Below, piece after piece: positions 27,345 to 62,046 of a stretch of DNA of 64,000 bases. A program made the translations under genes and the position numbers. The notes beneath the pieces were generated by a model. The model was given only the letters and a program-made list of their open reading frames with translations. It did not search any database and was not told where the DNA came from. How positions within the stretch are numbered: position 1 is the stretch's first letter; each line of letters starts with the position of its first letter. This DNA comes from Nitrospiraceae bacterium (GTDB taxonomy: Bacteria; Nitrospirota; Nitrospiria; Nitrospirales; Nitrospiraceae), in NCBI GenBank assembly GCA_919902665.1, contig CAKKRK010000020.1:62001-126000 (forward strand), in the 5' to 3' direction.

Positions 27345-27590
27345 ATGTTAGTACTCAGCCGTCGATGTGGAGAAAGTGTCACGATCGGTCCGGATATCCG
27401 GGTGGTCGTGCTTGGGATAAAAAGTGGTCAAGTCCGGCTGGGAATCGAAGCACCACCGGTGGTTGCGGTTCATCGGGAAGAAGTCTATGTGAGGATTCAA
27501 GAGGAGAACCGGTTGGCTGCGAAGACGCACGTGGTCCCTATAGACGCATTGCGTCGCTTGATCGCCGAAAAACCTCGGATTGCTTCGTGA
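27345..27590 (+). CDS. csrA: Translational regulator CsrA
   Basis: CsrA is a dimeric RNA-binding protein that blocks translation at GGA sites; with FliW it sets flagellin level. The 81-residue product begins [15 protein letters not shown] and contains [20 protein letters not shown] and [16 protein letters not shown], all canonical, with the C-terminal extension usual in FliW-containing species. The ATG at 27345 follows AGGA; the frame is open from 27327. The fliC leader contains candidate binding sites. Confidence 0.95.
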
Positions 27591-27600
27591 GGGCACAATT

Positions 27601-28083
27601 GTGAAGAGTCTATCGACCCGATTTGGATCATTCGAAGTCCGCGACGAAAGCATCCTGACGTTCCCTTCGGGTTTACTCGGTTTCCCTGAGCAGCAGCGGT
27701 ATGTCATCCTGGATCATGACACCGAGGCTCCTTTCAAGTGGCTGCAATCCGTCGAAGAACCGTCCCTAGCATTTGTCATTTTGGATCCAGCCATGATTCA
27801 TCCAGGCTATCAGATCGATGTTCCTGCCGATGCCTTGGCGGAAATTCGAGCAGAGGAGAGAGAAGAGCTAGCACTGGCTGTGATCTTGACCATTCCATCG
27901 GATGATCCTGGTCGAATCACCGCTAATTTGCGAGGACCGCTGGTGATCAGCCACCAGACCAAACTGGGCAAGCAGATGGTCCTTTCCGAAGATTTTCCTA
28001 CCAGGTACCCGTTGTTTCCCGTCTCCGAGTCCCCATCGCCAACACCCGCGCAGGTTTCTCATTCTGTAGAATGTCAAATCTAG
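27601..28083 (+). CDS. fliW: Flagellar assembly factor FliW
   Basis: FliW binds flagellin and antagonises CsrA, coupling flagellin export to its synthesis. The 160-residue product shows the family signature: STRFGSFEVRDESILTFPSG, LLGFPEQQRYVILDHD, FKWLQSVEEPSLAFVILDP and LRGPLVISHQTKLGKQMVL. I use the GTG at 27601 (GAGGG eight bases before); an earlier TTG at 27580 overlaps csrA. A convergent kinase gene follows. Confidence 0.93.
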   Translation: MKSLSTRFGSFEVRDESILTFPSGLLGFPEQQRYVILDHDTEAPFKWLQSVEEPSLAFVILDPAMIHPGYQIDVPADALAEIRAEEREELALAVILTIPSDDPGRITANLRGPLVISHQTKLGKQMVLSEDFPTRYPLFPVSESPSPTPAQVSHSVECQI

Positions 28084-48321: not shown

Positions 48322-48411
48322 ACAAGCCAATGTCAACCTCATGATCACAGCGAAAGGAGGCATTGCGCACAAGGTGCCCGCGGTATTGAAGCGAACTCAT
48401 TCAGGCCAGCG

Positions 48412-48465
48412 ACACGGATGTTGCGGTGGCGTAGTGTTCCAGTAGTGAATCTCTCACGGAGGAAT
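48412..48465 (+). promoter_or_regulatory. Candidate CsrA binding sites in the fliC leader
   Basis: ACACGGATGT at 48412-48421 matches the ACANGGANGU consensus. A second GGA motif, CACGGAGGAA at 48456-48465, covers the ribosome binding site. A further AAAGGAGG lies at about 48354-48361. One site on the Shine-Dalgarno and one upstream is how CsrA represses flagellin (hag) in Bacillus. Confidence 0.5.
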
Positions 48466-48470
48466 TTCCA

Positions 48471-50393
48471 ATGGCGTTAACAGTCAATACCAACATCCCT
48501 AGTTTAACGGCGCAACGGAATTTGGGTAACAGCAACGACATGCTGGCCAAATCGTTGGAGCGTTTGTCATCCGGTCTCCGGGTCAACCGGTCTGCGGACG
48601 ACGCAGCCGGACTGTCGATTGCAACCAAGTTGAACATGCAGTCGCGCGGTCTTCGCGTGGCCGTACGGAATGCCGGCGATGCAGGATCCCTGGTCAACAC
48701 GGCGGAAGGCGCGTTTAACGTTGCCACCAACATCATCGGCCGGTTGCGTGAATTAGCTGTGCAAGCAGCCAGCGACACGAATACGGCCTCGGATCGGGCG
48801 ACCTTAGGGGGTGAATCCAGTTTGCTCGTGGCGGAGCTGAACCGGTTGGCCAGCACGACGGAGTTCAACGGTTCTTCCTTGCTGGACGGTTCCTTCTCGT
48901 CCGGGAAAATCCAGGTGGGCGCCAACGCCGATCAGACGATCTCCTTCTCGTTGGGTGACGTGCGCGCCGCCCAGCTTGGAAAATTTGCTGCCTTCTCTGT
49001 GGATATCGATAACGGGATCGGCTCGGCCGGGACGAGCCAACAAAGCGGGTACGGGAACATCACGGCCGGGGAATTCAATATCAATGGCCAGTTGGTTGGC
49101 GCGACCACGGCCACCGACGATCAAGTCTCAGTGCTGGAGCTGTTTTATAACAGTACCGGTGGCACGTTGCGGTTAGGGGATGGGACGGCTGGAGCCTCCG
49201 GCGCAACGGCATCGATGGGTACCTCTGCGACGACCGGAAACATCGCGAACCAGTTAGCCTCGGGCGTCGGAGCCTTATACATCAATGGCACGGCGATCAC
49301 CAGCCTCGCCACTGTGGATGGTCTCTCTGCCGCCTCTGGCACCAGTTCGCCTTATTCGACGAATAGCCAGTTCGTTTCGGCCTTTGTGGCGAAGATCAAT
49401 GCGGCGGGAATCACCAATGTGACCGCGCGGCAGAACGCCGACGGCTCCACCTATGCGTTGGTGGCAAGCAAGGGCACCGATATCAAACTGGCCTACAGCA
49501 ATACCGCCAACGTCTCGATGGGGTCCCAATTCAGCAGCATCGGATTGGCAAGCCAAGTGGTCGGATCCGGTAACGCTATCAGCGAGGTTAGCACCTACAA
49601 CGGCCAGTCCGGCGCCATCTCAAAGGCCGCGGCCATCAACAACGTCAGGGGCAAGACCGGGGTGGCCGCGGTGGCCGTTCCGAACGTGTTTTCCCAAGCA
49701 ACCGGTGTGGTTGCCGGCACACTTTCGGCCAATGGGCTATTCATCAACGGCTTCGCGATCGATGCGACGACGAACATCCTCGCCGGTGACAGCACGGGCG
49801 TCTTGCGGGCGGCGATCAACGCCAAGACCTCTTCCACAGGGGTCACCGCAAGCGTGAGTACTGCAGGGGCATTAATTTTGTCGGCCGCGGACGGCCGGAA
49901 TATTTCCGCCTTTGTGGGGACGGCTGAGGCGGCTACGGTCACCGCAGCCAGCACGGGAGTCAACATGTACAGGGGCGCCGTCAGGTTGACGTCGCAGGCC
50001 GATGTCACTTTCTCCGGGAGGACCACGGACATCGGGTCTGCCTCCACGGGCGTGCCCTACACGACGGACCTCCAAAATTCACTGGCCGTCATAGATATCA
50101 GCACCCAAGCCGGCGCCAATACGGCGATCATGTCTCTCGATGCGGCCCTTGCGCAGATCAGCAAGGTGCGGTCCGATGTCGGAGCCTTGACGAGCCGGCT
50201 GGAGTTGACGACACAGGCCCTGACGGTGTCCGCTGAGAATCAGGAAGCAGCGGCGGCCCGGATCAAGGACGCGGACTTCGCCTATGAAACGGCGCAATTC
50301 ACGCGAAACCAGATCCTGGTGCAGGCCGGCACGGCGATCCTGTCGCAGGCGAACAGTACTTCGCAGATCGCGCTACAGCTCCTGCAGGGCTAA
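48471..50393 (+). CDS. fliC: Flagellin FliC
   Basis: Filament subunit. The D0/D1 N-terminus has ALTVNTNIPSLTAQRNLGNS, LERLSSGLRVNRSADDAAGL and AEGAFNVATNIIGRLRELAV. The C-terminus has YETAQFTRNQILVQAGTAIL then SQIALQLLQG. The 640-residue length exceeds the 500-residue enterobacterial form because of a Thr/Ser/Ala-rich variable region (about 170-500), the likely glycosylation target given the island directly upstream. SD GGAGGAA. It is the only flagellin gene in the window. Confidence 0.97.
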   Translation: MALTVNTNIPSLTAQRNLGNSNDMLAKSLERLSSGLRVNRSADDAAGLSIATKLNMQSRGLRVAVRNAGDAGSLVNTAEGAFNVATNIIGRLRELAVQAASDTNTASDRATLGGESSLLVAELNRLASTTEFNGSSLLDGSFSSGKIQVGANADQTISFSLGDVRAAQLGKFAAFSVDIDNGIGSAGTSQQSGYGNITAGEFNINGQLVGATTATDDQVSVLELFYNSTGGTLRLGDGTAGASGATASMGTSATTGNIANQLASGVGALYINGTAITSLATVDGLSAASGTSSPYSTNSQFVSAFVAKINAAGITNVTARQNADGSTYALVASKGTDIKLAYSNTANVSMGSQFSSIGLASQVVGSGNAISEVSTYNGQSGAISKAAAINNVRGKTGVAAVAVPNVFSQATGVVAGTLSANGLFINGFAIDATTNILAGDSTGVLRAAINAKTSSTGVTASVSTAGALILSAADGRNISAFVGTAEAATVTAASTGVNMYRGAVRLTSQADVTFSGRTTDIGSASTGVPYTTDLQNSLAVIDISTQAGANTAIMSLDAALAQISKVRSDVGALTSRLELTTQALTVSAENQEAAAARIKDADFAYETAQFTRNQILVQAGTAILSQANSTSQIALQLLQG

Positions 50394-50405
50394 GTCACAG
50401 CAGGG

Positions 50406-50435
50406 TGAGGCGCGGACCGTGGGGTCTGCGCCTCA
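50406..50435 (+). terminator. Strong hairpin after fliC
   Basis: A 13-bp stem (TGAGGCGCGGACC with GGTCTGCGCCTCA, one G-U) and a 4-base loop, 12 bases after the fliC stop. No U-run follows, so it may protect or partly terminate the flagellin mRNA ahead of flaG. Confidence 0.65.
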
Positions 50436-50461
50436 TCCTCGTAGGACGATGAGGTATCGCT

Positions 50462-50773
50462 ATGGTGAGCAAAATTGACGGAGATGTTTCTTTGTCCAAT
50501 GCTCCGCCGTCTCATGCTTCGCAGGCAGGGGGACGGACGGATGTGTTGACGCCTGAAACCAAGCCGGAGACTACGCAGGCGACACCAGTGGTGCCTGCGC
50601 AGCCGGCCTATGGGTTCCGGTTGCGCGTGGATCAGGAGACCAAGGAGGTCACGGTCGTCATCGTCGACCCGACGACCAAGTCGGTCATTCGCGAGATCCC
50701 CTCTGAAGAAATGCGCATCGCATCGGATGTCATCCGGAACCTCCTCGGCCCGCTGATCGATAAGATTGTCTAA
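50462..50773 (+). CDS. flaG: FlaG family protein
   Basis: A 103-residue FlaG. The N-terminal half is polar and disordered. The C-terminal half holds the conserved domain GFRLRVDQETKEVTVVIVDP, SVIREIPSEEMRIASDVIRN, typical of FlaG. It affects filament length in other polar flagellates. Lies between fliC and fliD as usual. Confidence 0.92.
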   Translation: MVSKIDGDVSLSNAPPSHASQAGGRTDVLTPETKPETTQATPVVPAQPAYGFRLRVDQETKEVTVVIVDPTTKSVIREIPSEEMRIASDVIRNLLGPLIDKIV

Positions 50774-50777
50774 TTCC

Positions 50778-50804
50778 TCAAGTTTCTTCGCTCCCTGCCG
50801 ATAA
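50778..50804 (+). promoter_or_regulatory. Sigma-28 promoter for fliD
   Basis: TCAAGTTT, 11 bases, GCCGATAA. Close to the classical FliA consensus. Predicted start near 50811 and a leader of about 18 bases with GAGAGGGGAG before the ATG. Confidence 0.78.
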
Positions 50805-50828
50805 AGACTGTGAGAGGGGAGCAGACAT

Positions 50829-53156
50829 ATGGGAATTACCTCAACCGGCCTATCGTCCGGGATCAATTTCGAGCAACTCATCCAGCAAGTGCAAGACGCC
50901 CAGCGGCGTCCCGTTGAGCTCTTGAAGGCCAGGCAGGCTGGCTTCCAGAAAGAAGTCGGCGCGGTGGCGAGCGTGAGCACAAAGCTCTCCACGCTATTGG
51001 CCGTGGCCAGTTCCGTCAATAATCCAGCAAATTTCAATGTGAAGACCGTGGCAGTCGGGAAGACGACGGCGGGCGCCTCGCTCCTGACGGCGACCGCCAA
51101 CAGCGCGGCAACCAAGGGAACGTATGCTGTATCGGTGAAGCAGTTGGCTCAAGCGGGCAAGCTAGCGGCCAATGGATTTGTCGACCAGAATACGTCGTCC
51201 GTGGCGACAATCGACGGGACCTTCAAGTTCAAGGTCGGTACGGCGGGAACAGAATATAGCGTGGCGGTGTCCGCCAGTACGACGCTACAGTCTCTGCGCG
51301 ATGCGATCAATGCAAAGGGCGGCAGTGTCACGGCCTCTATCATCAACGACGGAACGGGCTCCAACCCCTATCGGCTCATTCTCGCCACCAATGAGAATGG
51401 CGCCTCGAACAGCGTCACCATCACGAATAACGATACGACGTTGGATTTCACGAACAAGAAGGTCGAGGCTGCCTATGCCTTTACCGGGAATAGTTTTGGC
51501 GGCACGATTACCTCGAATGCCGGCAATAATTATACGGGCTCGACGAATAAGACCTTTCTCATTCAGGCCGTGACCGGCGGAGCGCCAGGCGTTGCCACGT
51601 ATAAGTATTCCATCGATGGGGGTCTGACCTACTTGGGCTACGGGGGCGCGGCCTATAGCGCGACAGCCGGCACCGGCACCACCGGAGGCGGGATTACGGC
51701 AGCGACGGTTGCCACAGCGATCGACGGTTCCGGGACCACCAATGAAGGTGTTCAGATCAACTTCGGGGCGACCGGCACCCTGGCCGCTGGCGATCGTTTT
51801 TCGGTGGATGTATTCGCGCCGACATTGCAAGCCGGGCAAGATGCCATCGTGGTCGTAGACGGCACCACCTATACCAAAGCGAGCAATCTCGTCACGGATA
51901 TCATCCAAGGCGTGACGTTGGATCTGCTGCAAGCAGATGCCACGAACGGTGTGATTCTGACGGTCTCGTCGAACGCGGCCGGCGCCACGGAGAAGATCAA
52001 GAACTTCGTGTCGGCCTATAACGAGTTCAATACGTTTCTAAACGAGCAACTCAATTTCACGGCCAACAGCAAGCAAGCCAGCCCCTTGCTCGGAGATCCG
52101 ACCCTGCGCGCGATTCAAAAGAAATTGAAGGATATCATCAGTGGCCAGATTCCAGGCCTCACCACGGGGAAGGCTAATCTGTCTCAGATCGGCATTACGT
52201 CGAATAGCAAGACCGGTGCACTCTCGGTGGATGAAGGCGCATTGTCCACGGCGATCAGCTCAGATCCGGAGGGTGTACGAAGGCTGTTCCTCGGCATTGG
52301 CACGCCGAGCGATAGTGCCGTGACCTTCGTCGGTCTGAGTGCCACGACGTCACCTGGGCGGTATGGGCTGAACATTACGACGGCGCCACAGAAAGCCATT
52401 CTTGGTGGCTCCACGGATGTGACGATTCAGGACCTGTCATTGACCGGATTGACGAGCGCCGAAGTCTTGAGTTTTAGTTACAGCGGCGACTACAGCTCAG
52501 CAACTCCCACGACGACATCGTTCACCGTCTCACTGAGCGCAGGCCAGAGAATTAACGATATCGTTAACACGGTCAATAGCGCATTTGCGACGAATCGTGT
52601 GGGCCTGTCGGCGTCCAACGACGGCGGACGGCTCAAAATCACGTCGAAAGACTATGGGGCGGACGTTCGTTTTACGGTCGTGTCCGATCAAGCCGGCGTC
52701 ACACAAACGGGCATCGGCTCGGTCGGACGGACGGCACAGGGAGCCGATATTGCAGGCACGATTAATGACCATGCGGCAACAGGCCGTGGGAATGTGCTGA
52801 AAAGCAACTCGGGATTTGGAGAAGATGGTCTGTCGATCAGTACGGAAAGCACGTCGACCGGGCTGTTCGGCACGATTGACGTCACGCGGGGCGTCGGGGA
52901 CCAGCTCGTGTCATCCCTGGCTCTCTATACCGATCCGACCGTCGGCATCCTGAGGTCGAAATCGAAGGGGCTGGAAGGCACCGTGGATCGGCTGCAGAAG
53001 GACATTGAAAAGTTTAATGCCCGTATCGATCAAGAGGGGGAGCGGTTTCGAGACCAACTCATCAGGCTGGAATCTCTCCTCGGCAAGTTGCAAGCGACGA
53101 GCAACTATCTGAGTAATCAACTCGCGAATCTTCCCACGATTGGAAAGCGTCGTTAA
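50829..53156 (+). CDS. fliD: Flagellar filament cap protein FliD
   Basis: Distal cap that folds flagellin into the filament. The N-terminus GITSTGLSSGINFEQLIQQV with RPVELLKARQAGFQKEVGAV is diagnostic. Two Flagellin-IN-like motifs (TTLQSLRDAINAKGGSVTAS; INDIVNTVNSAFATNRVGLS) lie in the middle. The C-terminus has DRLQKDIEKFNARIDQEGER, the cap coiled coil. At 775 residues it is larger than most (450-680). Own sigma-28 promoter. Confidence 0.96.
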   Translation: MGITSTGLSSGINFEQLIQQVQDAQRRPVELLKARQAGFQKEVGAVASVSTKLSTLLAVASSVNNPANFNVKTVAVGKTTAGASLLTATANSAATKGTYAVSVKQLAQAGKLAANGFVDQNTSSVATIDGTFKFKVGTAGTEYSVAVSASTTLQSLRDAINAKGGSVTASIINDGTGSNPYRLILATNENGASNSVTITNNDTTLDFTNKKVEAAYAFTGNSFGGTITSNAGNNYTGSTNKTFLIQAVTGGAPGVATYKYSIDGGLTYLGYGGAAYSATAGTGTTGGGITAATVATAIDGSGTTNEGVQINFGATGTLAAGDRFSVDVFAPTLQAGQDAIVVVDGTTYTKASNLVTDIIQGVTLDLLQADATNGVILTVSSNAAGATEKIKNFVSAYNEFNTFLNEQLNFTANSKQASPLLGDPTLRAIQKKLKDIISGQIPGLTTGKANLSQIGITSNSKTGALSVDEGALSTAISSDPEGVRRLFLGIGTPSDSAVTFVGLSATTSPGRYGLNITTAPQKAILGGSTDVTIQDLSLTGLTSAEVLSFSYSGDYSSATPTTTSFTVSLSAGQRINDIVNTVNSAFATNRVGLSASNDGGRLKITSKDYGADVRFTVVSDQAGVTQTGIGSVGRTAQGADIAGTINDHAATGRGNVLKSNSGFGEDGLSISTESTSTGLFGTIDVTRGVGDQLVSSLALYTDPTVGILRSKSKGLEGTVDRLQKDIEKFNARIDQEGERFRDQLIRLESLLGKLQATSNYLSNQLANLPTIGKRR

Positions 53157-53182
53157 CCGTTGTATCCGAAGGAGGAATAGCT

Positions 53183-53674
53183 GTGAGCGCATCGAGTAGT
53201 CCTAATGCTGTGGCCGCCTATCAGGTCAGCAATGTAGCCCTGGCCGATCCGGCGCAGGTCATTGTGTTGTTGTATGACGGCGCGATTTACCGGATCGGGC
53301 AGGCCTTACAGGAGATCGAGAAGCAGAATACCCTGGCCTCGGGTATTGCCATCTATCGCGCCTTGGCGATCATTGGCGAGCTGCGCAATTCGCTCAATCT
53401 CGAAGTGGGCGGCGAGATTGCGATGAATCTGGATCGATTGTATCTTTACATGCATGAGGAACTTGTGAAGGGGCATCTTGCTAGACGAACCGAACCGCTT
53501 GAGCGGGTGCGCAAACTGCTGATGGATCTGAATGAGGCCTGGAAACAGGTGACTCAGCCGGCAAAACAGGTACCAGCCTCCGAGAACAATGTTGCGTCTT
53601 CGGTTGCTATGGGGGCGGGGATACGATCCTATTCACAACCTGAATCGGCCCCGCGGCTTGCTCTCAGAGCATAA
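53183..53674 (+). CDS. fliS: Flagellin export chaperone FliS
   Basis: A 163-residue helical chaperone for flagellin. AVAAYQVSNVALADPAQVIV, LLYDGAIYRIGQALQEIEKQ and LRNSLNLEVGGEIAMNLDRL are the FliS signature; RKLLMDLNEAWKQV ends the fold. The last 40 residues are an extra tail. GTG start at 53183 after AAGGAGG. A decayed second copy of its C-terminal half lies at about 55880-56111. Confidence 0.94.
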   Translation: MSASSSPNAVAAYQVSNVALADPAQVIVLLYDGAIYRIGQALQEIEKQNTLASGIAIYRALAIIGELRNSLNLEVGGEIAMNLDRLYLYMHEELVKGHLARRTEPLERVRKLLMDLNEAWKQVTQPAKQVPASENNVASSVAMGAGIRSYSQPESAPRLALRA

Positions 53675-53682
53675 GGAATACC

Positions 53683-54069
53683 ATGGTCTCTCAATACCTC
53701 CTGGAGGAACGATATCGCGCCCTCAGCCCCTTGCTCGATCAATGTTCAGCCGGAATCGCCTCTCAGAACTTGGATGTTGTGGAAAGCAGCCTGACGGATA
53801 TGGACGACATTCTTGCTGAAATCGAGAAGCTGTCAGTGATGTTGAATGACCCGCCAGTCTCGCCGAATCATTCGGCTGCGGCAGAAGGAGTGGCAACGGT
53901 GATTCAAACCGTACTCAATGAGATAGACGCCAATCGGTCTCGTCTCGAAGAATGGAAAAACTTGATCCAGGTTTTGCTCAGACAACTGAAGGTGGGCGGG
54001 CAGGCAATGGATGGCTACGCGGCTGCGGCTGGTCGATCGTCCGGCCAGCTGATTCGCGTGAGCGCGTAG
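53683..54069 (+). CDS. fliT: FliT-like flagellar chaperone
   Basis: A 128-residue helical protein eight bases after fliS, the place of FliT (FliD chaperone) in many genomes. Helix 1 (VSQYLLEERYRALSPLLDQC) and the later amphipathic helices (VIQTVLNEIDANRSRLEEWK) fit the FliT/FlgN type fold, but sequence identity in this family is low, so the name rests mainly on position and helical pattern. Confidence 0.7.
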   Translation: MVSQYLLEERYRALSPLLDQCSAGIASQNLDVVESSLTDMDDILAEIEKLSVMLNDPPVSPNHSAAAEGVATVIQTVLNEIDANRSRLEEWKNLIQVLLRQLKVGGQAMDGYAAAAGRSSGQLIRVSA

Positions 54070-54369
54070 AGTATTGTGATCCTTCGTTTCTGGAAGGATA
54101 ATAACAATGGGCATCGAATTCGGCACAATCCATAATCTTGTCCGAATCTATCAATAAGTGCTCAAACTGGCATATGCCGACGCTGGTTCTACAGCGGGAA
54201 CCGGCGCGGCACACGATCGTCTGTAGATTTCTTCAGAAACCCGCGTATAAAGAGAAGCCACCAGAATAGCAGGAATTCATGAGGAGCCTCTTAGCCGCAA
54301 CGTTGCAAAAGCGGATTCAGCACAATGAAAACGTTCACGGATCCATCGGCACGGTAGCCAGCGAAGGCG
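54070..54369. other. Intergenic region after fliT
   Basis: No gene seen. Contains a 7-bp hairpin ATCCTTC-N7-GAAGGAT at 54079-54099 and a stronger one at 54181-54206. Marks the end of the fliD-fliS-fliT transcript and the start of a decayed block. Confidence 0.5.
54181..54206 (+). terminator. Hairpin downstream of fliT
   Basis: CGCTGGTTC pairs with GAACCGGCG (9 bp including one G-U) with an 8-base loop. No U-run follows. Confidence 0.4.
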
Positions 54370-55435
54370 CATGAAGCGCCGGCGAGCAATCGCGCAGGGG
54401 CGCGTTTGCTTCTGGTTTCGCTCCCCCCGCGTGGTTTTGCAGAGCTGCTCCATCAGCATCCCGCTACATCCGACTGCCTCATTGCCCAGGTCGAACGCCC
54501 TTGAATGCGATCGACAAAGTCAAAGAGGGTGTCGTCGATGCACTGATCTGCCGGTTTGCAAGCCGCATGCAGGCGCGTGCGCTATTGGAGCAGCTGGCAG
54601 AGCTGCAGAGCGATGTCTGCGTGATCTTTCTAGGGCGCGATCTGGGAGCCAGTGAAGTGGCGTATATTCTACAGCGAGGAGCATTCGATTATCTCACGCT
54701 TCCGCTGGACATTGACCGTGCAATGGAAGCGGTTGGGCAAGGGCTCCGCAATCGAGACGCGTTTATTGATGTCCGAAACTTCTCGTCCAGCTTGGCCAAA
54801 GCCAACGAGATTCTTGCCGGGGAGCGGCATCTCCCGAAACAGTGGAATCGAAGCCTTGCGGCGCTGAATCGACTCACCCAGGCTCTCTCCGGGTCCTTGG
54901 AGTCTGAAGCGGTCATTCGCACCTTGTTCAACAAGCTGCCCTCCGTGATTCCAGCGGAATTTGCGGGAGTGATGCGAACGCGCCCCGACCATGTCTGGAC
55001 GTGGTCGAAAACGCCAGACCATTATGGCCTGGCGAAGCGTCTGCGGGCAGCGCTTTCTAGAAAACTCGACGATCGGGATAAGACGCCGCCAGGTATCGTA
55101 TCCCCAGCCGGTTGCGGCTTGTCCCCTGATCCGGCTCCAACTCGACGCCGCTGCAATCGCCCCCTTTTCGACCCACTCTCCTGGAAGGCAGCATTGGCAT
55201 CGATATCCCGCTCTCGATCGGGTCGCAGGCATTCGGAGCCATTCTTGTCGCCCGACAGGAACCGCAAATGTTCACCGAGCAGAAACCGCAGCTTCTGGCC
55301 ACCGTCGGCCACTGGATTGCTGCGGCCGATTCGGCGCTGTATGCGGCCAAATCCCAAGGGCGCAATCGTGTAACCATTCATGCCGGGTGCCGTCTTTCGC
55401 CTCAGCAGGGCGCGGCCGTCCTTGCCGTCGCGTAG
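54370..55435 (+). pseudogene. Decayed response-regulator/GAF/GGDEF gene
   Basis: Three reading frames must be joined to rebuild the protein. Frame one gives RLLLVSLPPRGFAELLHQHP, a receiver-like start, ending in a stop near 54506. Frame two (from about 54501) continues NAIDKVKEGVVDALICRF to the GAF-like part LAALNRLTQALSGSLESEAV. Frame three (about 55180-55435) gives AFGAILVARQEPQMFTEQKP then, after a deletion of nearly the whole GGDEF domain, SALYAAKSQGRNRVTIHA, the GGDEF C-terminus. It is paralogous to the GAF-GGDEF gene at 56456-57610, which lacks the receiver-like part. Confidence 0.85.
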
Positions 55436-55454
55436 TTGACCGGAAGAATCTGCC

Positions 55455-55691
55455 ATGCATCGAGAGGCCATGCCCAATCAGCCCGTGCCCGTAAGCGTCG
55501 CTTCGGACGAACGCCGGGAGTGGCTCCGCATCGACGACAATCTGCTGCTCGAATATCGGTTGTTGGACGAGTCTTCTGATGCCCCCTCTCCCATGAGCGC
55601 GGTTCGAGCGGCGTTTCGTCCTGCGCATAAACGAAGGACGAGAGGCGCTCCACGGCGCTTAAGTGTTCTTGCGGCGAAGCCGATAACGTAG
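55455..55691 (+). pseudogene. Truncated paralogue of the PilZ-type gene at 57630
   Basis: The first 45 residues (SDERREWLRIDDNLLLEYRL) match ADERREWIRIDDRVLMEYRV of the intact gene, then the similarity stops and the frame ends at 78 residues instead of about 200. The missing part would be the PilZ domain proper. Its end overlaps the sigma-28 promoter of the next decayed gene. Confidence 0.8.
55659..55686 (+). promoter_or_regulatory. Sigma-28 promoter of the decayed excisionase-like gene
   Basis: TTAAGTGT, 12 bases, GCCGATAA. The -10 ends 11 bases before the ATG at 55697, exactly as in the intact copy (60434-60461). Confidence 0.6.
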
Positions 55692-55696
55692 TTGTC

Positions 55697-56111
55697 ATGA
55701 ATAATGCCGCGTCCGCAACCACAGTCCTCAATCCTGACGATGTGTTCACGGCGGACAGCGAGATGTTGACCATTGCGGACGTGGCGCAGATTCCTGCGCG
55801 TTCCGAAATCCACGGTCTACAAACTCGCCCGGGCCGGGATCGAGTCGAACAGTCCAAAGGACAAAGGCCGATTCCTCGGACGAGCCATTTCCATCATCGG
55901 GGAGCTCAATAGTGTGCTCGATTTCCAACAAGGCGGCGAGATTGCACGTTCGTTGCACCGTCTCTACGAGTATATGCTCAGCGAACTGGTCACGGCCAAT
56001 GTTCAGAATGATGCGCGCCGGCTCGGTGGTCCGCATCGTTGCCTGACCACGCTTCGCGAGGGGTGGCGGGAGATCGCGGCGCAGCAGACTCGTCTGGTTG
56101 GTGTACGATGA
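55697..56111 (+). pseudogene. Decayed excisionase-like gene fused to a fliS C-terminal fragment
   Basis: MNNAASATTVLNPDDVFTAD and SEMLTIADVAQ match the intact regulator at 60472. A frameshift near 55785 is followed by RRFLRVPKSTVYKLARAG, again the same protein in another frame. That frame then runs directly into ISIIGELNSVLDFQQGGEIA and LHRLYEYMLSELVTANVQND, the second half of FliS. So the HTH gene has lost its end and FliS has lost its start, at one deletion junction near 55860. The frame 55773-56111 is open and has a TTG start, so a chimeric product is conceivable but unlikely. Confidence 0.85.
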
Positions 56112-59392: not shown

Positions 59393-60292
59393 TCATGCCG
59401 CACGCGATAATGGGTTTGAGAATAGTTGCAATAGCGCATCTGCTGACTTGTTGATTGCAATCGAAGCGGGTGAGGAAGGAGCGTGCTGAACCACCGGGAC
59501 GTACGCACGTACCGCTTGTTCCATCGCAGGGTCGTCCGGAATCTCACCCAGCAGGGTCAAATCGCCACCAACATACTCTTTGAGCAGTTTCCTCAGCTGA
59601 AGTACGTTGACGCGAGCGCGTCCCGATACGCGATTGAGGATGAGGGTCGGCTGAAATGCTCGCAGGGTAGTTTCTGCGATCGCACGACCGGACTCATCCG
59701 TCTTGCCCGCGACGTCTAACACCTCTTCCACACTGCTGTAATCCCGGTTCGCTAGGCCTTCCGCCATCACATTCCGCATCACGAACAGCGATAAAACACG
59801 ACGAATCGCCGCGAGCTTAAGAAACCGGTAGAGATCCAAGACGGAGGTGGGGTCTGGCGTTGCGACGGCGACGTGATGGTCGGCCATAAGAAAAAAATCG
59901 AGAGTATGATAACTCGCTCCTGCTCCGATATCGACGACGATCACGTCCGCGCGGATATCTTGAAAATTCCGGATCAGGCGTTTCTTCTGTGAATAGGACA
60001 TGTTGGCTGTCGCTAAGGTATCGCCGGTGCCGGGAATAATCCGCAAGTTCGGATGAATGGGGAGCGGGTGAGCCAGATCATCCAGCTGCTCAATGCGATG
60101 GTTGAGGAAGTCGGTCAGGGTAAATGGCGGATTGAGGAGGCCGACCAGCACATGTGCGTCGGCGCCGCCGACGTCGAGATCCACAAGCACCACCTGCTGC
60201 CCCCTCTGTGCCAAGAGGAGAGCCAGGTTAGCCGCCACCACACTTTTGCCGACCCCGCCTTTGCCCGACGCGACCGAAATCACACGCGCCAT
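59393..60292 (-). CDS. MinD/ParA family ATPase, second FlhG-like protein
   Basis: A 299-residue deviant-Walker ATPase. RVISVASGKGGVGKSVVAAN starts at residue 3 with no N-terminal extension; VVLVDLDVGGADAHVLVGLL and DVIVVDIGAGASYHTLDFFL follow. It resembles FlhG/FleN more than cell-division MinD. Transcribed against its neighbours, with the excisionase-like gene divergent. May set the position or number of flagella, or of the chemotaxis array; the paralogue beside flhF is the standard FlhG. Confidence 0.85.
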   Translation of the reverse strand: MARVISVASGKGGVGKSVVAANLALLLAQRGQQVVLVDLDVGGADAHVLVGLLNPPFTLTDFLNHRIEQLDDLAHPLPIHPNLRIIPGTGDTLATANMSYSQKKRLIRNFQDIRADVIVVDIGAGASYHTLDFFLMADHHVAVATPDPTSVLDLYRFLKLAAIRRVLSLFVMRNVMAEGLANRDYSSVEEVLDVAGKTDESGRAIAETTLRAFQPTLILNRVSGRARVNVLQLRKLLKEYVGGDLTLLGEIPDDPAMEQAVRAYVPVVQHAPSSPASIAINKSADALLQLFSNPLSRAA

Positions 60293-60433
60293 TGTGTACA
60301 GTTCCTATTGGTTTAGGCCCAGTCGCAGATCCTTTGTCGGTCGGTCGTGGAGAAACATGAATGGGCATCAGGCATCCGAGTGGAAAGGGTGTGAAGCGAA
60401 GGGTGGAGCCCGAGATTCGCTCCCATTGGGTGC

Positions 60434-60461
60434 TCAAGTTTTCAAACCGCCACGCCGATAC
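60434..60461 (+). promoter_or_regulatory. Sigma-28 promoter of the excisionase-like regulator
   Basis: TCAAGTTT, 12 bases, GCCGATAC. The -10 ends 11 bases before the ATG at 60472, so the predicted transcript starts about 4 bases before the start codon and there is no room for a Shine-Dalgarno sequence. Confidence 0.7.
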
Positions 60462-60471
60462 CTCAGTTGTC

Positions 60472-60705
60472 ATGAATAATGAAGTATCTACAGCAACGGC
60501 GATTCAGACCGAGGAAGTCACCGTACGAGAGGGAGAAATTCTCACGGTGATGGAGGTGGCTCGGTTCCTTCGGGTACCGAAGTCCACCGTCTATAAGCTT
60601 GCCCGAGTCGGTGACTTGCCGGCATCAAAAATCGGAAAGCACTGGCGGTTCCTTCGCCGTGACATCCATGAGTGGATGCATGGTCGGTCTCGACAAGCCT
60701 CGTAA
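60472..60705 (+). CDS. Excisionase/MerR-like helix-turn-helix protein
   Basis: A 77-residue DNA-binding protein. EILTVMEVARFLRVPKSTVY and KLARVGDLPASKIGKHWRFL, then RRDIHEWM, form the HTH_17/excisionase-family winged fold. No integrase or phage gene is nearby, so it is more likely a small regulator than a recombination factor. I start it at 60472 because the decayed paralogue begins with the same MNN at the same distance from its promoter; the frame is open from 60361. Confidence 0.85.
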   Translation: MNNEVSTATAIQTEEVTVREGEILTVMEVARFLRVPKSTVYKLARVGDLPASKIGKHWRFLRRDIHEWMHGRSRQAS

Positions 60706-61025
60706 CCGACGAGTGGCTGCCTTATTGATTGGCAGAAGGACTCGACGTTCCCACTCCTAGACGGCAAGGCGCCATGGTCATGAGTGGTGGGCATGATCCG
60801 ACCGGAGCCTGCCGCTTGGGAACACATCTTTCTCCACGCACGGCGACCCTGTCCCACCCATAGGAGAAAGTTTGCGCTGAGGCAAGCCATTCCGGCTCAG
60901 GTCGCTGGGCCAATGTGCCGATATTGGATGAAGCGCCGAGCGGTCGTGGAAAGATCCGACCATCCCATTCTGGATAGACCGTCGGACCTCGTCGCTGTGA
61001 CTGTAGAGTAAAAAAAGGAGACGTT
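60706..61025. other. Intergenic region before cheY
   Basis: No gene supported in 320 bp. It holds the sigma-28 promoter at 60897-60924 and a ribosome site AAAAAAGGAG just before cheY. Confidence 0.6.
60897..60924 (+). promoter_or_regulatory. Sigma-28 promoter for cheY-cheZ-motA-motB
   Basis: TCAGGTCG, 12 bases, GCCGATAT. The -10 is good, the -35 weaker. Predicted start near 60931, leader about 95 bases. Confidence 0.6.
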
Positions 61026-61406
61026 ATGCCAGCCGATCCAAGTATGAAGATCCTGGTGGTCGATGACATGGTGACGATGAGGAGAATCGTCAAAAATATC
61101 CTGAAACAGTTGGGATTCGCCAATATTGAAGAAGCCGAAAACGGACAGGAAGGGCTGCAAAAACTGCGGGCCGATACGTTCGGATTTGTGGTATCCGACT
61201 GGAACATGCCGGTCATGACGGGTATCGACATGCTCCGAGCCATTCGGGCGGATGAAAAGCTCAAAGCCATTCCTGTGCTGATGGTGACGGCCGAGGCTCA
61301 ACAAAGCAACCTTATTGAAGCGGTGCAGGCGGGCGTCAGCAATTACATCGTGAAACCCTTTACGGCTGAGACGATGCAGGAAAAGCTCGGCAAGATATTC
61401 AAATAG
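61026..61406 (+). CDS. cheY: Chemotaxis response regulator CheY
   Basis: Single receiver domain of 126 residues that, when phosphorylated, binds FliM. The acidic pair is in [18 protein letters not shown], the phospho-acceptor is Asp58 in [18 protein letters not shown] supplies the switch Thr, and [10 protein letters not shown] the Lys. The sequence is close to enterobacterial CheY. Followed by cheZ, its phosphatase. Confidence 0.97.
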
Positions 61407-61440: not shown

Positions 61441-62046
61441 ATGAATGATGGAGGTAGCGTGGAAAACGGCGGGCATAAATTATACGAAGAGCTCGGCGAA
61501 TTAGCTCGTTTCGTCAAAGACACGATGAGGACCCTCTCGGAGGCCAGTCCTCAGCTCTCGTCCAGCAGTGTGCAGCTTCCGGCGGCTGCGGCTCACTTGA
61601 GCGATCTCAAACAAATGACGGAGGACGGGACACTGGAAGTGATGCGCCTGACGGAGATGATTCAGGATGGTCACGGGCAGATCGCCAAAGATCTCTCCGC
61701 CGTCATCGAGATCCTGCGGGCGATGGATTGCAAGTCACTTGTGGAACGACTTGAGAAGGTGTCGTCCGTTCTGCTGCAGGACGACAAGCATCTGACGGAG
61801 ATCATGACCGCCCTGTCCTTTCAAGACTTAGTCGCGCAGCGAGTGAAGAAACTTGTGGCGATTCTCGATGAAGTCCAAGGCAAGCTGGTGGAACTCGTCG
61901 TCATCTTCGGACTCCAGCAGAGTGGCAATGGGTCGACCGCCTCCGGAACCGCAGGCGACCTGCTCAAACAACTCGAGGCATCGAACACGACCGCCATGAA
62001 ACAACAGGTCGCTGACGATATCCTGGCTCAGTTCGGATTCAAATGA
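61441..62046 (+). CDS. cheZ: CheY-P phosphatase CheZ
   Basis: A 201-residue helical protein. The active-site helix reads IMTALSFQDLVAQRVKKLVA, with the catalytic Gln; the C-terminal KQQVADDILAQFGFK is the CheY-binding tail. A GTG at 61459 preceded by GGAGG is an alternative start with very short spacing. CheZ is found mainly in Proteobacteria-like systems, so this pair suggests a classical two-state motor. Confidence 0.92.
   Translation: MNDGGSVENGGHKLYEELGELARFVKDTMRTLSEASPQLSSSSVQLPAAAAHLSDLKQMTEDGTLEVMRLTEMIQDGHGQIAKDLSAVIEILRAMDCKSLVERLEKVSSVLLQDDKHLTEIMTALSFQDLVAQRVKKLVAILDEVQGKLVELVVIFGLQQSGNGSTASGTAGDLLKQLEASNTTAMKQQVADDILAQFGFK

Follow-up and report, generated by a model that had tools for sequence, protein, structure and literature searches.

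Genes and protein at the locus

The DNA analysed (the window, 64 kb in length) stems from a 3.56-Mb Nitrospira genome in 240 contigs and includes a motility cluster with a small gene, here called the HTH_17 gene (60472-60705, plus strand), which encodes a 77-residue winged-helix DNA-binding protein. A divergent gene for a ParA/FlhG-like ATPase (59393-60292, minus strand) belongs to the same cluster, and cheY (61026-61406) and cheZ (61441-62046), both on the plus strand, are the conserved downstream neighbours. About 100 orthologous regions were collected for a comparison of promoters and synteny, with 102 copies of the HTH_17 gene from Nitrospiraceae genomes. The order fliC, fliD, fliS, often DGC and PilZ genes, usually the divergent ParA-like gene, and then the HTH_17 gene recurred in about 100 genomes, with cheY, cheZ, motA and motB usually located 3' of it.

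The HTH_17 gene product matched the Pfam profile PF12728 (63.2 bits; cut-off 27) and the excisionase domain model TIGR01764 (56.3 bits; cut-off 28.8); excisionase phrogs matched as well. It stayed under the cut-offs of the BldC family (NF033787; 22.8 bits against 77), the MADS defence protein MAD1 (NF047737; 60.9 against 80; PADLOC gave a weak match as well) and MamR (NF040990; 25.8 against 100). Exactly one winged helix-turn-helix (wHTH; residues ~22-75) is accommodated in the 77 residues. In the AlphaFold model, pLDDT was ~90-95 across residues 21-70, with the winged helix confident from residue ~21; residues 1-15 are disordered. Neither a phage nor an integrase gene was found beside the HTH_17 gene at the ~100 loci, whose neighbours were the ParA-like gene, cheY, cheZ, fliC and the like. 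The preliminary description of this DNA as encoding a 77-residue winged-helix protein free of phage or integrase neighbours was thus borne out by the Pfam match and the neighbouring genes.

Promoter and predicted transcript start

A σ28-type promoter immediately precedes the HTH_17 gene. Its -35 element TCAAGTTT (60434-60441, plus strand) and -10 element GCCGATAC (60454-60461, plus strand) are separated by 12 nt, and a further 10 nt (CTCAGTTGTC) lead to the ATG at 60472. Direct reading of the sequence confirmed the earlier claim that, in both the intact gene and a decayed copy, the end of the site is 11 bases from the ATG. The consensus for σ28 of E. coli is TAAAGTTT-N11-GCCGATAA; the HTH_17 promoter matches this consensus of class 3 (FliA-dependent) flagellar genes with one extra base in the spacer, a spacing found in 96 of the 102 copies. 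A search by pattern with 12 N, as in E. coli, did not match the HTH_17 promoter, the spacing of which is 13 in that pattern. The score of this promoter was attained by 11 sites of the 64-kb window and by 0-5 sites of resampled windows.

The likeliest transcript start, as judged from the sequence, is the purine at 60469, which is position 8 after the site; all of the 91 copies have G or A there. Since this conserved purine fits the usual distance from -10 to +1, a 5' leader of 3 nt (GTC; 60469-60471, plus strand) is predicted. The proposal of a near-leaderless start therefore stood, and the 4-base leader claimed with it gave way to 3 nt. No Shine-Dalgarno sequence was detected upstream of the HTH_17 ATG, where the bases are those of the promoter itself; this agrees with the missing ribosome site reported earlier. 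Most neighbouring genes of the motility cluster do have Shine-Dalgarno sequences. We infer leaderless-type initiation on the HTH_17 message.

Other σ28-like sites at the same loci are placed at larger distances from their start codons: ~98-149 nt for fliC, ~22-34 nt for fliD, ~41 nt for the ParA-like gene and ~75-135 nt for cheY. In the window, the site of the ParA-like gene (60335-60360, minus strand) leaves a normal leader, with 41 nt from site to start, and an alignment of 23 relatives placed a site of the form TCAGGTCG-N13-CCGATAT ~100 nt upstream of cheY (60897-60924, plus strand). In contrast to the HTH_17 gene, the other FliA-dependent genes of these genomes are preceded by leaders of normal length that contain a ribosome site. 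A near-leaderless start is unusual within the σ28 regulon of these loci.

Two further elements were noticed in the cluster. Between the HTH_17 gene and cheY, a palindrome-like block (60779-60796; CATGAGTGGTGGGCATGA) is kept in near relatives and occurs a single time in the genome; it may be regarded as a candidate operator only. A small open reading frame (MSGGHDP...) at 60780 was rejected, as the ATGA..GG block is kept in near relatives and the length of the reading frame is not. The fliC leader contains ACACGGATGT (48411-48422), which matches what we take to be the CsrA binding consensus, and near relatives carry a similar CACGGATG block in a predicted hairpin. When read by eye, csrA followed by fliW appear at ~27346-27700. 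A CsrA-FliW-flagellin circuit as in Bacillus or Campylobacter is likely.

Conservation of promoter, spacing and reading frame

The motif TNAAG(TTT)-N12/13-CCGATA was present upstream of all 102 HTH_17 copies. The distance from site to ATG was exactly 10 nt in 91 copies and 9-11 nt in most others. In these 91 copies A-A-G-T-T-T of the -35 element was (nearly) invariant and CCGATA of the -10 element invariant, as was (nearly) the purine at position 8, and the spacer was free to vary. A start at that purine would give a leader of the form RYY-AUG. The ATG was kept, in frame and with no stop, in 98 of 98 copies analysed (98 of 101 overall); of the three deviating copies, one has an ACG start and two have longer leaders. 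Codons 2-21 were weakly constrained (dN/dS 0.51) but changed in the manner of coding sequence, with third positions most variable and length changes in whole codons, and the core was strongly constrained (dN/dS 0.03).

These data bear on the possibility that the message has a normal leader, being either transcribed from well upstream (e.g. near 60361) or translated from an internal codon at about residue 26-27. The HTH_17 frame is indeed open upstream to 60361 in the window, and 52 of 98 copies have an ATG at codon 27. Against this, a conserved internal ATG or GTG was not found among the 98 copies, the N-terminus being in frame in nearly all; an in-frame stop occurs within 16 codons upstream in 20 of 98 copies, any upstream in-frame ATG in only 32; and the alignment of 23 relatives contained no further conserved promoter in the interval that separates the HTH_17 gene from the ParA-like one. 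With internal codons unconserved and stops frequently closing the upstream extension, the data support neither a start further upstream nor an internal one, and we consider a normal-leader message very unlikely. The upstream start with a normal leader, which the preliminary description had named as evidence against its proposal, thus found no backing as far as the sequence goes.

Additional copies were observed in some genomes. One locus (L123 in genome G138) carries two intact HTH_17 flagellar-cluster genes in tandem, ~1.1 kb apart, each with a σ28 site; in one of them, the site is followed at 7-10 nt by an ATGATG start. Almost all genomes of the genus, among them some devoid of the flagellar HTH_17 gene, contain another small HTH_17 gene, ~37% identical to the flagellar one (L002, G000 C28:32585-32758, and its counterparts).

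Leader evolution in the order

In the sister family of the same order, an ortholog occupies the equivalent place before cheY-cheZ and has the same σ28 promoter. Its ATG lies 37-39 nt from the site, which leaves a leader of ~30 nt with a GAGG-type ribosome site, and it has no N-terminal extension. The near-leaderless start and the ~20 extra residues are therefore a feature of Nitrospiraceae. In most sister-family copies C-A-T is present at or next to positions 7-9 after the site, and this fits a start point shared with Nitrospiraceae. Within the latter, genera G069 and G078 have longer HTH_17 leaders; a 48-column tree was too weak to place them, that is, to tell kept from regained longer leaders. 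With gene, promoter and place being equal, the leadered and the near-leaderless forms provide a natural comparison for the effect of a leaderless start.

The short leader may be devoid of regulatory meaning. The start codon would then have moved beside the promoter once, and later insertions and deletions would have been purged, as they damage either the promoter or the frame. The normal leader of the sister-family gene, which has the same promoter, indicates that the gene can fulfil its role without a short leader, and the leader of the ParA-like gene is also fairly constant in length among near relatives. On the other hand, the exact spacing is kept over most of the 13 genera although the N-terminal codons that follow are free to vary. 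We regard this explanation as a serious one, if somewhat short of an even chance; it is compatible with the best explanation of the HTH_17 protein, given below.

The decayed copy and a foreign flagellin module

A second, decayed HTH_17 copy (55697-55829, plus strand) is foreign, frameshifted and fused to a native fliS remnant at ~55830. It is preceded by a σ28-type promoter of the form TTAAGTGT-N12-GCCGATAA (55659-55686, plus strand), in which TTAAGTGT (55659-55666) and, after 12 nt, GCCGATAA (55679-55686) are followed by 10 nt (CGTAGTTGTC) and the ATG at 55697. In both the intact and the decayed copy, the reading frame opens with ATGAATAAT.

The preliminary description took conservation in these two copies as a sign of a real late-class regulator, an argument that fails: what the decayed copy represents is the distal end of a flagellin module of foreign origin, joined to native fliS, and for this reason it does not count as another native copy maintained by selection. 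The FliC, FliD and FliS proteins encoded at 48.5-53.7 kb have their closest counterparts in another genus (82%, 92% and 68%, respectively), and fliS from 55830 onward and the later genes are native (roughly 83-99% to relatives of the same genus). For the DNA of the decayed copy, the best match comes from a further species (L139, 75%). Tandem duplication as its origin was rejected, given that FliC, FliD and the first FliS resemble another genus and native sequence begins only at 55830. The stretch 48471-55830 appears to be a foreign module (fliC, flaG, fliD, fliS, fliT, a broken DGC gene, PilZ and the HTH_17 copy) placed before native fliS, and the native fliC-fliD seem to have been replaced by it. 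This suggests that flagellin modules travel with their own HTH_17 gene.

Co-occurrence with flagella

Among 147 genomes of the family, 100 had both FliA and the HTH_17 gene, six had FliA only, six the gene only and 35 neither (Fisher p ~2e-21, not corrected for kinship). The loss of the gene from flagellated relatives that had been proposed as a counter-argument was not seen, 100 of the 106 FliA-positive genomes having kept it. In three of the six FliA-only genomes the contig ends right after fliC, where the HTH_17 gene is expected; two are nearly complete assemblies lacking a FliC-type flagellin; and one is 71% complete, with only an FlgL-like match in the flagellin search. Contig ends or a missing flagellin account for five of these six, G147 being the remaining one, and a search for CheZ in the six gave no match. 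Four of the six gene-only genomes have flagellin and incomplete assemblies.

In a sample of the phylum, a homolog was present in all ten FliA-positive genomes of the sister family. One of these is doubtful (G269), in that its homolog has neither a σ28 promoter nor motility neighbours and may be unrelated. As FliA-positive genomes outside the order Nitrospirales generally lack a homolog, the HTH_17 gene is an addition to the flagellar regulon that is specific to this order. Its promoter, conserved in orthologs, and its occurrence with fliA argue that it belongs to the σ28 (FliA) regulon.

The excisionases RdfS, Pukovnik Xis and TorI (PDB 8DGL, 4J2N and 1Z4H) share the wHTH fold of the HTH_17 protein and, together with BldC, were the best solved folds in a structure comparison with its model. 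Along with the matches to the excisionase domain model and phrogs, this likeness recalls a recombination directionality factor left over from a mobile element. Such an origin is extremely improbable: the gene is vertically inherited with fixed flagellar neighbours inside a motility cluster, no integrase gene adjoins it, its core is constrained as described, and its presence is tied to that of FliA.

Comparison with known systems

In both fold and sequence, the closest solved structure is BldC of Streptomyces (PDB 6AMA, 6AMK; sequence E 0.009, fold probability 1.00, rmsd ~2 Å over 51 residues). BldC, a developmental regulator, shares with the HTH_17 protein the architecture of a single small MerR-like wHTH without an effector domain. 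It differs in belonging to another phylum and in having no flagellar context, and the HTH_17 protein scores far under the BldC family cut-off. We know of no σ28 promoter for bldC.

The closest functional analogue, and the closest described circuit, would be that of Euo of Chlamydia. In Chlamydia and Waddlia, this excisionase-like wHTH regulator represses late genes and the σ28 gene fliA (PMC4989314, PMC12282069, PMC10653925). The HTH_17 gene likewise encodes an excisionase-like wHTH protein tied to a σ28 circuit, but Euo contains two wHTH domains in tandem (PMC4989314), acts before rather than after σ28, and is found in organisms without flagella.

With respect to its start, the gene resembles those of leaderless mRNAs, in which AUG coincides with the transcript start or follows it by a few bases; here that start is predicted and the ATG is strict. 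In Leptospira, ~440 messages have leaders of <10 nt, and at 37°C motility genes were under-represented among the leaderless ones (PMC5243855). Kasugamycin inhibits canonical initiation but spares leaderless initiation (PMC4929434). Unlike these, the HTH_17 gene has a predicted start tied to a σ28 promoter and conserved throughout the family.

Proposed role of the HTH_17 protein

Sequence comparison establishes the promoter, spacing, start codon, frame, synteny and co-occurrence with flagella of the HTH_17 gene. Of the late-class regulator proposed earlier, it upholds a conserved, apparently translated, σ28-linked gene that belongs to the late motility cluster and has a predicted near-leaderless start. 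The reading that we favour, with some reserve, is that of a σ28-dependent late-class gene of Nitrospirales whose near-leaderless message encodes a BldC/excisionase-like wHTH protein adjusting late flagellar and chemotaxis promoters. FliA RNA polymerase would transcribe the gene from 60434-60461, and the transcript would begin ~3 nt before AUG, so that ribosomes would have to initiate on an almost leaderless message. By binding DNA close to promoters of late flagellar or chemotaxis genes, the protein would probably adjust their output, a feedback within the σ28 regulon. BldC binds DNA cooperatively, and by analogy DNA binding by the HTH_17 protein would probably be cooperative too. An action on motility genes is suggested by place and promoter only; the targets, and repression as opposed to activation, are guesses.

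The targets may also lie outside the flagellar regulon, with the σ28-driven, near-leaderless gene passing on a 'flagellum finished' state to attachment, c-di-GMP or metabolism. DGC and PilZ genes are nearby, so such outputs exist, and the alignment of 23 relatives revealed no conserved operator block next to the HTH_17 promoter, the conserved parts being the two divergent σ28 sites and the beginning of the ParA-like gene. The strict linkage to cheY-cheZ/motAB and flagellin genes over many genomes is more usual for a local regulator, and we hold outside targets to be possible but doubtful.

A more speculative and rather improbable extension of the favoured reading is that the near-leaderless message couples synthesis of the regulator to FliA release and to the state of the ribosome pool (e.g. 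70S initiation in slow or stressed cells). If true, this would constitute a translational check on flagellar feedback in very slow-growing nitrite oxidizers.

The main nitrite oxidizers belong to Nitrospirota, as do the complete ammonia oxidizers. Flagellar gene control in this phylum appears undescribed, and searches of a literature collection retrieved nothing on it. The HTH_17 gene probably encodes a lineage-specific, hitherto undescribed regulator of the late flagellar class, and its start is unusual and conserved. Nearly universal in flagellated members of the order and apparently under the flagellar σ factor, it offers a concrete candidate for a missing control step.
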